A DNA stretch of 64,000 nt from Syntrophaceae bacterium (GTDB lineage: Bacteria > Desulfobacterota > BSN033 > UBA1163): NCBI GenBank assembly GCA_013388635.1, contig JACAEX010000043.1:62001-126000 (forward strand), written 5' to 3'. The notes beneath the pieces were generated by a model. The model was not told the DNA's origin, did no database searches, and saw only the letters and a list, made by a program, of their open reading frames with translations. Position numbers and translations under genes: made by a program. Positions within the stretch are counted from its first letter, which is position 1. Each line of letters opens with the position of its first letter. Positions 11,829-16,227 of this stretch are shown here, in pieces.

Positions 11829-11952
11829 TTCATTGACTCTTCTTGCGACCCTATCAGCGGTAAAAGTCTACCCCCCTAAAATAAAAAAATCAACTCAAAT
11901 TCCCCTTTGCTTCCATAAGGAGAGCGGTTGATGAAATAATGATGATTTCCTG

Positions 11953-11987
11953 TAAAATGAATCCCTTGACTCAGTTTATTCATTTTA
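11953..11987. promoter_or_regulatory. 10-bp perfect inverted repeat (TAAAATGAAT-N15-ATTCATTTTA) overlapping a putative promoter of the methyltransferase gene
   Basis: Arms 11953-11962 and 11978-11987. Candidate -35 TTGACT (11965-11970) and -10 TATCAT (11989-11994); ATG at 12001 has no obvious SD. Confidence 0.5.
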
Positions 11988-12000
11988 TTATCATACCACT

Positions 12001-12951
12001 ATGTTTGATAAACGGAAAATAGTTGAAAAATTTGCCTTGTCAGAACATATTGTAGTTTATCCTGGTGATTGCCTAGACTTACTGAAAACAATCCCGAACG
12101 AATCATTAAAACTTATCGTCACCTCACCGCCTTATAACATTGGTAAAGAATACGAAAGACGACTCAAGTTAGAATCCTACCTTGAACAGCAGGCGGCTGT
12201 AATCCGGGAATGTGTAAGATGCCTATCCCCTAAGGGAAGTATTTGTTGGCAGGTGGGAAATTATGTCGACAATGGTGCCATTATCCCATTAGATACGATC
12301 CTATATCCCATCTTTACTGGTTTAGGCCTAAAGATGAGGAATAGGATTATCTGGCATTTTGAGCACGGGTTACATTGTAGCCGCCGATTTTCGGGCCGAT
12401 ATGAAACCATCATATGGTTTACAAAATCGGATGATTACACATTCAATCTCGATCCTGTAAGAGTGCCACAGAAGTACCCAGGCAAAAAATATTTCAAAGG
12501 ACCAAATGTGGGAAAATATTCATCCAACCCGCTAGGCAAAAACCCGGGAGATTTATGGGTTATCCCTAATGTAAAGAGTAATCATGTAGAAAAGACCGAG
12601 CATCCGTGTCAATTTCCCGTGGAATTGATAGAACGTCTCGTTCTTTCAATGACAAATGAGGAGGATTGGGTGTTAGATCCGTTCCTTGGAGTTGGCACTT
12701 CAATCATTGCAGCTATACGGCACAATCGGCGTGGAGCAGGTGCAGAAATAGTTCCTAAGTACATTGAATTGGCCAAAGAGAGAATTCAACAGGAACTTGC
12801 TGGGACATTGAGAACACGCCCAATGTACAAACCCATATACGATCCAGTGGAGGCAGGGAATACGTTGATTGAAGCTCCTTGGAATAAAACTAAAGATTCA
12901 AAACAGCTTTTGTTAATTAAAGAAAAGAAAGTTAAATACCATACAAGATGA
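12001..12951 (+). CDS. Type II DNA methyltransferase, beta class, probably N4-cytosine
   Basis: Motif IV TSPPYN near the N-terminus and motif I DPFLGVGTS near the C-terminus (beta-class order). SPPY fits m4C enzymes. Confidence 0.88.
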   Translation: MFDKRKIVEKFALSEHIVVYPGDCLDLLKTIPNESLKLIVTSPPYNIGKEYERRLKLESYLEQQAAVIRECVRCLSPKGSICWQVGNYVDNGAIIPLDTILYPIFTGLGLKMRNRIIWHFEHGLHCSRRFSGRYETIIWFTKSDDYTFNLDPVRVPQKYPGKKYFKGPNVGKYSSNPLGKNPGDLWVIPNVKSNHVEKTEHPCQFPVELIERLVLSMTNEEDWVLDPFLGVGTSIIAAIRHNRRGAGAEIVPKYIELAKERIQQELAGTLRTRPMYKPIYDPVEAGNTLIEAPWNKTKDSKQLLLIKEKKVKYHTR

Positions 12952-13559
12952 AAATTATCGAAACATATTCCCACCTAAATGGTCTTGAATATCTTCTTGT
13001 TCACAAGCCAAATCTATGGCGAGAAATACAAGCTGTTATTTCCCATGTGGATGCAGAGAGGTTCAAAACCAAGGTTTCCAACGAGAAGACGATGAAGGGG
13101 AAAATCCTTTATAGCCCCATAGGGATGAATGCTGAGTTTAAAAGGTTACTCCGTGCAAAAAATTGGAAGGAAAGCCGAGTAAGCTATTGGGTTACTAAGA
13201 GTGAAAAGCTTATTAGGAAGACACTTACCATGTCTCCAGAGGAACAGAAGAAAGAAATAGAGGCAGCAGGTGAAGTACCTATTTTTAGTTACAATCAGAC
13301 CGATTTTGTTAAAGATCGTGTAGCTCTTGAGGTGCAATTTGGTAAATATTCATTTGTAGCATATGACCTTTTCGTAAAACATCTTGCCTTCTATGTTGGC
13401 GACTATATTGATGTCGGGGTTGAAATCCTACCAATGAAATCTCTCCAATCACATATGAGTTCAGGTGTCCCCTACTATGAGGGTGAATTCTACAATGTTG
13501 TTAGGCAAGGTCGGGGAGTCCCTGCAGTTCCTTTGGTCATCATTGGAATTGCCTCATAA
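12948..13559 (+). CDS. Type II restriction endonuclease, BglII/BstYI-like (predicted RGATCY specificity)
   Basis: Overlaps the MTase by ATGA. YSHLNGLEYLLVHKPNLWREIQ, TDFVKDRVALEVQFGKYSFVAYDLFVKH and RQGRGVPAVPLVIIGIA match BstYI as I remember it; catalytic D...ExQ core. Confidence 0.85.
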   Translation: MKIIETYSHLNGLEYLLVHKPNLWREIQAVISHVDAERFKTKVSNEKTMKGKILYSPIGMNAEFKRLLRAKNWKESRVSYWVTKSEKLIRKTLTMSPEEQKKEIEAAGEVPIFSYNQTDFVKDRVALEVQFGKYSFVAYDLFVKHLAFYVGDYIDVGVEILPMKSLQSHMSSGVPYYEGEFYNVVRQGRGVPAVPLVIIGIAS

Positions 13560-13569
13560 ATATAAAATC

Positions 13570-13645
13570 AGCTAACAATTCATCCAGCGCCTGCCTGCCG
13601 TAGGCAGGGATGGCTTACAGCCCCCGCTGATTTCAATCATTAGGC
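13570..13645 (+). other. attC-like (59-base element-like) imperfect palindrome downstream of the endonuclease
   Basis: AGCTAACAATTCATCCAGCG ... CCTGCCgtaGGCAGG ... CGCTGATTTCAATCATTAGGC: R''/L''/L'/R' layout with CAGCG/CGCTG and CTAA/TTAG pairing. The GTT core is ATT here. Confidence 0.4.
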
Positions 13646-13648
13646 CAG

Positions 13649-13828
13649 ATGGAAAAGATGACAGCCGAACAATTAAAGGAAATGGCTAAGGCCCTGGACG
13701 GGCCAAGGGTGGTGCAGAAACTCTGCAGAGAGAAGTCGCAACCCACCACGGCAAGGGGCTATCCTCTCTATACCTGTAATTTGTGCAGAGCTATCTGTCC
13801 TAAGGGAAAAGGTCTGGGCGGTTCTTAA
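13649..13828 (+). CDS. Small Cys-rich protein (59 aa), possible Fe-S or Zn mini-protein
   Basis: Translated by hand: MEKMTAEQLKEMAKALDGPRVVQKLCREKSQPTTARGYPLYTCNLCRAICPKGKGLGGS; CxxCxxxCP motif. Below the track cutoff. Confidence 0.6.
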   Translation: MEKMTAEQLKEMAKALDGPRVVQKLCREKSQPTTARGYPLYTCNLCRAICPKGKGLGGS

Positions 13829-13832
13829 GGGC

Positions 13833-15104
13833 TCAAAATCTGGAGATCAAATTACCCTCTTCATCAAATGGAAAGTCGATCGGTTCGGTGAGGATCTCGA
13901 TGCGGGGATTTGATCGGGCCTCGTCAAGCAAGGCTTCGGAGGCGAAGAGGTATTCCAGCTCCAGCGTGTTCTTGATCCAGAGGATCCGGAGATCCCTGGA
14001 GTCGAAGACCCCGGAGTTGTAGTGGGCCGTGCGCAAGGCCTCCCGGTCCCTTTCAAAGAAGACCGGAATACGAGCATTCTCGGGCACCATCCCGTTGATG
14101 CAGTTGATGTGCGTGGAGGGGTAGTCAATCTTATCAACCAGACGTTTGGTCGTATAATCCGCCATCCCGATCCCTGTCGCATTACCGTGAGTCCCCTCGG
14201 TGAGGTCCCTGACGAAGATTCGGGTGATCTTCGGATTCTCAAACCTTGGGTTTCCGATCAGTTGATTCCGGCCGACCACATTGGTATCCATTCCCGTGCC
14301 GCTGATATCCTTGCCCATCTCGTCCACGATCAGAATATCCACCTCATTGAACGGAAGAGAGGGCATCCATTCCCTTGCCCTTCTGAGGAGGGCCTTCTCC
14401 TTCTCTATAAACTCCTCCGGGCTCACAAGCTCGATCAGGGCTGTCTGATCGTACTGGTTTTCTATAATCCCTATCCCAAAGAAGATGGGAAGCTTTTCAA
14501 GGAGGATCGAACCCACCTCAGCCAGGACCGTTGAAAAACCGTGTTTGATCGTCAGCCGGTGTACCATCAGCGACCCCTGGTGCTTTCCCATGCCGATGGC
14601 CATCATCTTGATCAAACCGCTTTCGATCTCTCCCTTGAAATCGGTATGGGGCTTGATTCGATTGACGACGATAATCTTATCCGCCCCTAAAAGATCTCTG
14701 CCGATCAAGACAGGGGTGCCGAATCTGGTCCGGCCAACCTCCTCAACATCCATGGAAGAGATAATGGGTGCTCCTACGCTCCTCTCCGTGATTCCGAGAC
14801 TCTCCAGCACCTCCACCTGACCTTCTGCAGTCGCCCCTCCATGGCTTCCCATCGAAGGAACGACAAAGGGAGAGGCTCCCAAACTCCTGAGATGTTCGAT
14901 CACCGTCTTTAGAACTCTGGGTTTATCTTTAATGCCCCGGCTTCCCGCGGTCAGAGCGATCCGCTCTCCTTTTTTAACCTTTCTGGATAACTGGAATCGA
15001 TTCAAAAGCTCGGACACCCTCTGCTCGACATTCTCTAAGCGGGGGGCATCCATCTTCTGTCGAATCTTGAAAATCTTTGGCAGGCTTTCCATCATCGATT
15101 GCAT
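13833..15104 (-). CDS. LarA-like / DUF2088 domain protein (nickel-dependent lactate racemase superfamily)
   Basis: IALTAGSRGIKDKPRVLKTVIEHLRSLGASPFVVPSMGSHGGATAEGQ and IIVVNRIKPHTDFKGEIESGLIKMMAIGMGKHQG. Confidence 0.82.
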   Translation of the reverse strand: MQSMMESLPKIFKIRQKMDAPRLENVEQRVSELLNRFQLSRKVKKGERIALTAGSRGIKDKPRVLKTVIEHLRSLGASPFVVPSMGSHGGATAEGQVEVLESLGITERSVGAPIISSMDVEEVGRTRFGTPVLIGRDLLGADKIIVVNRIKPHTDFKGEIESGLIKMMAIGMGKHQGSLMVHRLTIKHGFSTVLAEVGSILLEKLPIFFGIGIIENQYDQTALIELVSPEEFIEKEKALLRRAREWMPSLPFNEVDILIVDEMGKDISGTGMDTNVVGRNQLIGNPRFENPKITRIFVRDLTEGTHGNATGIGMADYTTKRLVDKIDYPSTHINCINGMVPENARIPVFFERDREALRTAHYNSGVFDSRDLRILWIKNTLELEYLFASEALLDEARSNPRIEILTEPIDFPFDEEGNLISRF

Positions 15105-15135
15105 TCCGTGATCTGCCCGATGCGATGCCTATGAT

Positions 15136-16227
15136 TCAAAGCAGGGCCTTTTCATCGTCCGGATCAAAAAGGTGGATATTCTCCAGGTTGGCCTGAAGCA
15201 AGATCTTCTGGTGGGGGATCACCCTTGTCTTGGGATCGACAGAGGCGATCAAGGAGTCCCGACCCGCCTTCACATCGAGATAGATCTCATTTCCTATGGG
15301 CTCGATGATCTCGACGAGGGCTTCGATCGTTTCGCCTTCGACAGGGGCTGAGGCTTTTGAAAGGTCTTGCGGTCGAATGCCCAAGGTGATCTTCTTGCCT
15401 ACATGATTTTGAAGATTTCGAGACCTCTCCTCGGGTATCCTCAACCGGAAACCATCCGCCTGAACGAACAATCTGTTCTCCGATCCGATCAGCTCGGTCT
15501 CTATGAAATTCATGGTCGGACTTCCGATAAAGCCTGCCACAAACTTATTGATGGGATGAAAGTAGAGATCCAGTGGCTTCCCCACCTGCTGGATCAGGCC
15601 ATCCTTCATCACGACGATCCGGTCCCCCATGGTCATCGCCTCCACCTGATCATGCGTGACATAGATGATGGTCGAGGAGAGGCGCTCGTGAAGTTTCTTC
15701 AATTCCCCCCTCATCTGAACCCTCAATTTGGCATCCAGATTGGAAAGGGGTTCGTCAAAGAGGAAGACCTGGGGTTTTCTCACGATGGTCCTTCCAACCG
15801 CCACCCTCTGGCGCTGTCCACCGGAGAGTTGCTTGGGTTTTCGGTGCAGGAGCTCCGAGATCTCAAGAAGATCTGCCGCCTCTTTGACCCGCTCATCAAT
15901 CTCCTTTTTGGACAACTTCCTCATCTCCAAGCTGAAGGCCAGATTTTGATAGACCGTCATATGCGGGTAAAGGGCATAGTTCTGAAAGACCATGGCGATA
16001 TCCCGATCCTTGGCCGGGATCCGGTTGATCAGTCGGTCCCCGATATAGATATTCCCTTTCGTGATCTCCTCCAGCCCGGCGATCATCCTCAAGGTCGTTG
16101 TCTTCCCGCACCCGCTGGGACCGACGAAGACCACAAACTCCTTGTCTTCGATCTCTAAACTGAAGTCTTTGACCGCGATCACCTCGTTGAAATATTTGGA
16201 GACGTTCTCCAGGATCACTCTTGCCAT
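15136..16227 (-). CDS. Sugar ABC transporter ATP-binding protein (MalK/UgpC-like)
   Basis: Walker A GPSGCGKTTTLRMIAGLE, LSGGQRQRVAVGRTIVRKP, C-terminal TOBE region. Confidence 0.95.
   Translation of the reverse strand: MARVILENVSKYFNEVIAVKDFSLEIEDKEFVVFVGPSGCGKTTTLRMIAGLEEITKGNIYIGDRLINRIPAKDRDIAMVFQNYALYPHMTVYQNLAFSLEMRKLSKKEIDERVKEAADLLEISELLHRKPKQLSGGQRQRVAVGRTIVRKPQVFLFDEPLSNLDAKLRVQMRGELKKLHERLSSTIIYVTHDQVEAMTMGDRIVVMKDGLIQQVGKPLDLYFHPINKFVAGFIGSPTMNFIETELIGSENRLFVQADGFRLRIPEERSRNLQNHVGKKITLGIRPQDLSKASAPVEGETIEALVEIIEPIGNEIYLDVKAGRDSLIASVDPKTRVIPHQKILLQANLENIHLFDPDDEKALL

Follow-up and report, generated by a model that had tools for sequence, protein, structure and literature searches.

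Chromosomal attCs that are conserved by taxon have been described (PMC8352920). The 64-kb window, which is the whole stretch of DNA analysed here, contains a 76-nt site that shares with the attCs of sedentary chromosomal integrons the R''-L''-L'-R' order of boxes, the extra base in L'', the usual length, the cassette polarity, and a sequence type typical of its taxon. By contrast, it is a single site located off an array, has A in place of G in its R' box, and carries a palindrome in its terminal structure. IntegronFinder 2 places a single attC lacking an integron-integrase in the category SALIN (PMC12690207). The site described here is likewise one attC with no IntI nearby, and its assignment to this category is based on covariance models built in this study and not on IntegronFinder. 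Restriction-modification (R-M) genes are known among the anti-phage cassettes of chromosomal integrons, as in Xanthomonas (PMC12444791). The genes preceding the attC also encode an R-M system; however, it is of the BstYI type, has its own predicted promoter, is solitary, and recurs in several phyla. Its restriction endonuclease is homologous along its full length to that of the BstYI R-M system (PDB 1sdo), from which it differs by its location in a cassette, with the recognition of RGATCY being only predicted.

The locus represents a known kind of element, a solitary R-M cassette that ends in an attC, and its unusual feature is the palindrome-bearing terminal structure of the attC. It is very probable that positions 13570–13645 are an attC ending an integron cassette with a BstYI-like R-M operon and its own promoter, and that this cassette is now solitary and partly decayed. 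For an uncultured lineage, the element documents a defence system that moves between distant bacteria in an integron cassette, probably expressed from its own promoter, and that afterwards is retained outside the integron. A solitary R-M cassette is a natural case in which to ask how cassettes turn into fixed chromosomal genes.

The attC and the integrons of its host genome

The attC (13570–13645; all features described here are on the plus strand) is located 11 nt downstream of the stop codon of the restriction endonuclease gene at 13559 and has the same orientation. Its R'' box AGCTAAC (13570–13576) is identified by its sequence, the match to covariance model R1, and the alignment of attCs from the family. 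The L'' box ATCCAGCG (13582–13589), in which one extra C corresponds to an extrahelical G on the bottom strand, and the L' box CGCTGAT (13625–13631) are defined by their pairing, R1, and the alignment. The R' box ATTAGGC (13639–13645) is defined by its sequence, the reference attCs, and the alignment. The spacers are AATTC between R'' and L'' and TTCAATC between L' and R'. The preliminary description placed an attC-like order of boxes with a spacing of about 75 nt 11 bases after the stop codon, and its coordinates are correct, with the length being 76 nt. All seven L''/L' positions (7/7) pair if one C (13584/13585) is skipped; the same holds for the attC of aadA1. The R'' box deviates by one base from RYYYAAC, the R' box lacks the first G of GTTRRRY, and the four central bases of R'' and R' pair with each other. 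The G preceding TT in R' is invariant in 16 of 16 class 1 attCs and nearly so in the 24 attCs of the second model, R2. The possible decay proposed earlier from ATT in place of GTT is thus supported by an A at a nearly invariant position.

Folding of a 91-bp stretch as DNA gives z-scores of −2.4 for the top strand and −1.3 for the bottom strand. When the sequence is restricted to the 76 nt of the attC, the bottom strand is predicted to form a single closed attC-like hairpin with an energy of −15.6 kcal/mol, in which the R and L arms are closed and which contains two inner hairpins. In the cell, the single-stranded bottom strand would fold so that R'' pairs with R' and L'' with L', with bases remaining extrahelical, and an integron integrase would cut the attC in the R box and join it to another att site. 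Because the R' box reads A|TTAGGC instead of G|TTAGGC, recombination and mobility are probably weakened, which would leave the R-M pair close to fixed.

Two covariance models of attC were used. R1 was built from 16 attCs located behind annotated class 1 integron cassettes, in a gap-free alignment with the middle parts trimmed. R2 was built from 24 attCs from arrays of class 1 integrons and of environmental origin, with contigs C73 and C60 of the host genome contributing three attCs; it leaves out the target attC and the family arrays. In a search of both strands of the 64-kb window, R1 ranks the target first with an end-to-end match of 15.6 bits (E 0.2), followed by a second hit of 9.9 bits, and R2 places it at the top with 22.2 bits (E 0.0019), followed by a hit of 11.2 bits. 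In the whole genome of 3.4 Mb, R2 gives the target an E of 0.10 and rank 5, which makes it borderline on model score alone. Beyond the model score, the identification of the attC is carried by its position 11 nt after the gene and by comparative evidence. The preliminary description had named the lack of a covariance-model hit as evidence against an attC; both models rank the site first in the window, and its R and L boxes match those of array attCs of the family. A scan with a strict R''/R' motif missed the target because its boxes are variant, and a loose R''/R' motif search returned only background. An Rfam scan of positions 12000–15500 and of three attC-bearing loci produced no relevant match, and a search of plasmid DNA with the target site produced zero matches.

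The attC type of the family is TAACAAnTCACTCCAGCGGATGGCTTACAGCC(n)CCGCTGA, to which the target aligns throughout. This type is present in 10 of the 12 other family genomes searched, is multi-copy in eight, and at some family loci occurs several times within 3 kb. A 26-nt segment of the target, GGATGGCTTACAGCCCCCGCTGATTT, has an exact match in an attC from an array of a sister genus (genome G005, locus L200). Judged from the alignment, the target attC belongs to the type that is used by the chromosomal integrons of the family and is repeated in sister-genus arrays.

The host genome is a draft assembly of 3.4 Mb in 106 contigs. An intact IntI (TIGR02249; 426.7 bits against a cut-off of 265) is encoded at the edge of contig C23, and a truncated IntI on C60 has an attC about 1.5 kb away. 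The C60 gene (G000:C60:141550-141826; L020 13553-13831) encodes only the C-terminal part of IntI, fused to a short start, and has beside it a sequence resembling attI and a stretch that bears an attC. The sequence AACAATTATTGAACTGC, found beside intI both at the start of C23 and at the C60 locus, is a candidate attI. Contig C73 contains an attC cluster with toxin-antitoxin genes (MazEF- and ParE-like), and the family-type attC GTCTAACAAAACACTCCAGCGGATGGCTTAGAGCCACCGCTGACTTTTGTCGTTCAATT is positioned at the end of contig C9. The search for an IntI and other attCs suggested by the preliminary description was thus productive. Its statement that neither an integrase nor an array can be seen is correct for the window only, since other contigs of the genome have an intact IntI, a truncated IntI, and further attCs. 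The host genome still encodes an IntI, which may be able to act on the target attC.

Restriction-modification cargo and its relatives in cassettes

The putative gene cassette is approximately 1.71 kb long (11928–13639), and its right edge, 13639|13640, is the attC crossover. It encodes a 316-residue DNA methyltransferase with the motif TSPPY (12001–12951; Pfam N6_N4_Mtase, 5.9e-52; PADLOC MTase_II, 3.4e-86), the best PDB match of which is M.RsrI (1.5e-32), and a 203-residue BstYI/BglII-type restriction endonuclease (12948–13559; Pfam Endonuc-BglII, 1.7e-34), the start of which overlaps the methyltransferase stop. The endonuclease matches BstYI at full length (5.4e-94), and the residues D119, E128, and Q130, which we take to be catalytic, are identical in the alignment. 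By sequence, the full-length endonuclease and the adjacent methyltransferase are a type II R-M system of the BstYI family, with a predicted specificity for RGATCY. A predicted promoter (11966–11994) consists of a −35 box TTGACT (11966–11971) and a −10 box TATCAT (11989–11994) separated by 17 bp, and the cassette thus appears to carry its own promoter. Because the ATG follows the −10 box after 7 nt, the predicted mRNA is leaderless or nearly so. The −35 box is found again in relatives, at a comparable distance.

Relatives of the endonuclease were collected from genome contigs, and the best 80 of 479 were kept. According to the record titles they belong to many phyla; however, most of the records are MAGs, and some of the taxonomic labels may therefore be binning errors. 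Nine of the 80 relatives (L058, L065, L078, L093, L095, L102, L107, L109, and L119) have an attC (R2, E up to 5) on the same strand within about 15 nt of the endonuclease end, against a chance expectation of about 0.04 on the assumption of an even distribution of the 28 hits along the searched sequence. Across the loci of the relatives, 25 of the 28 R2 hits are on the strand of the R-M genes. In L107, a Syntrophaceae MAG, the order is IntI, attC, attC, R-M pair, attC. In other phyla too, close relatives of the BstYI-like pair have attCs at their ends; some of these relatives belong to arrays, and one is next to an intact IntI. Integron arrays of several other bacterial groups contain closely related gene pairs. 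The closest relatives, L058 and L059 (92% at the amino acid level), have the same type of attC at their end, with both R boxes degraded.

The array-borne relatives also indicate where the cassette begins. The cassettes of L107, L096, L091, and L081 begin at G|TTCTCT, directly behind an attC-like R' box, and that of L102 begins at G|TTCGCTG; in all five, TTGACT, the −35 box also present in the target, follows 23–37 nt further on. In L107, L109, and L102, the cassette starts are complementary to the R'' boxes located downstream of the endonuclease gene. From the G|TT starts of the relatives, the left edge of the target cassette is placed by homology at G11927|T11928, where G|TTGATGA is located 38 nt before the −35 box. 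This boundary complements the R'' box poorly, the expected sequence being approximately G|TTAGCTG.

Other relatives occur in different settings. In the proteobacterial loci L124, L130, and L133–L135, read by eye, the R-M pair is positioned each time between what seem to be the same two host genes, with similar coding sequence on either side and without an attC, which looks like a different recurrent insertion place. A viral scan found seven relatives of the endonuclease. The small class 1 integron plasmid pYTSY4-VIM (NZ_MT313930, L146) contains a short fragment of a BstYI-family endonuclease gene beside a resolvase gene and intI1.

Origin of the solitary state

Neither R1 nor R2 detects a second attC in the 64-kb window, and with the speed filters off the sequences beside the cassette, both upstream and downstream, give only background of at most 1.7 bits. 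The window contains no IntI. The locus is thus not a complete integron with intI, attI, and a cassette array, but has exactly one attC and no integrase nearby, as defined for SALINs. The right flank begins with TTAGGCCAG-ATG, and 46 bp further on it reaches the last 44 or so codons of a gene for a cysteine-rich protein. These codons are part of a 59-codon open reading frame outside the cassette (13649–13828), codons 13–56 of which match the C-terminal end of the protein. The parent gene, for a cysteine-rich (4Fe-4S-like) protein of about 230 residues, is full-length in sister genomes, and its remainder is absent here. The first 12 codons of the open reading frame are similar to the beginning of another gene (L053). 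To the left of the cassette, the conserved block includes an amidohydrolase and a peptide ABC transporter, and to the right a nickel-pincer isomerase and a second ABC transporter; both blocks have other neighbours in relatives. Because the flanks are from different conserved blocks, the region appears to have been rearranged. Searches from the NPN-isomerase side, the amidohydrolase side, and the small open reading frame found no empty site among relatives. Therefore, the solitary R-M cassette of the preliminary description is supported by the single attC and by the relatives in cassettes, but its insertion outside an integron is not proven.

The cassette would have come to stand alone, away from an array, either through insertion at a secondary site by IntI or through the loss of neighbouring cassettes. 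The former, to which we give slightly less than an even chance, would have required IntI to put a circular R-M cassette into the chromosome at a G|TT-type (attG-like) site. The single attC without an integrase and the lack of an array remnant on the left side agree with such an event, and the flanks when joined read GAGAGCGG|TTAGGCCAG, which has a full GTTRRRY core. Off-target recombination by IntI at GNT and GTTRRRY has been documented (PMC10127599), and insertion at attG is cited in passages of PMC12444791 and PMC12901181. However, an empty site is missing from the relatives searched, and the two flanks do not derive from one conserved block. It is just as probable that the R-M cassette was once a member of a chromosomal integron or attC cluster, the other members of which were deleted. 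The beginning of the right flank looks like the start of a next cassette, with the gene fragment following 46 bp later; the genome contains further clusters in a degraded state, as well as a truncated IntI; and the decayed R boxes of the target have counterparts in L058 and L059. By contrast, the window contains neither a second attC nor a remnant of IntI. As the searches of relatives returned no empty site, the two histories, insertion at a secondary site and loss of an array, are equally probable.

Both of these histories presuppose an attC. It is most improbable that the site is instead a hairpin that arose by chance or resembles a terminator, with a dispersed palindrome downstream of the operon as its source, although its inner palindrome is a dispersed repeat, its R' box is non-canonical, and its genome-wide model score is borderline. 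The identity of GGATGGCTTACAGCCCCCGCTGATTT to the sister-genus array attC in L200 and the presence of attCs in the same place in the R-M relatives argue against such a hairpin. The reading as a terminator was rejected because the hairpin lacks a downstream T-run and the site matches the family attC.

A dispersed palindrome in the terminal structure

The terminal structure of the attC includes the palindrome CCTGCCTGCCGTAGGCAGG (13590–13608), which has about 20 close copies dispersed in the host genome. Searched with a 101-bp query, the genome yielded 33 matches (E ≤ 10), about 20 of which are close copies of the palindrome. In the preliminary description, CCTGCC-gta-GGCAGG was the central hairpin of the attC. 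The hairpin is present; however, it is a dispersed genomic palindrome inside the attC. The objection raised there, that the hairpin may be an ordinary dispersed repeat, applies to the inner palindrome but not to the site, the boxes of which match the family attCs; the anatomy is corrected and the site stands. The 24-nt palindromic repeat CGCCTGCCTGCCGnAGGCAGGGAT is dispersed in the host genome in about 20 close copies, such as those in L003–L008.

In the alignment, the target without CCTGCCTGCCGTAGGCAG corresponds to the family attC, the basic 57–58-nt forms of which lack the palindrome. The palindrome is located at an identical position in five other attCs, one from contig C73 (L002) and the others from genomes G007, G008, G009, and G010. 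The six palindrome-bearing attCs are thus from five genomes and three genera, and their layout is always CCAGCG|palindrome|GATGGC. One of the six, that of G007, is intact and scores 38.6 bits; it is part of an array of four attCs (L218). The attC of G009 (L220) also has ATT in its R' box. The palindrome within the terminal structure would turn the attC hairpin into a branched one. A tentative and rather doubtful reading is that the terminal structures of family attCs diversify by capturing genome-wide repeats, with the dispersed palindrome repeatedly entering, or riding in, the terminal loop. Palindrome-bearing attCs provide a test of which changes of the terminal structure are tolerated without loss of function.

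The palindrome-bearing attC of contig C73 (L002 1501-1988; G000:C73:20801-21288) is of the family type and is missing its R'' box. The relatives of IS1111 include elements known to target attCs (PMC11187229). A fragment beside the C73 attC resembles the N-terminus of an IS110-family transposase (NCBIfam E 0.0004, below the cut-off).
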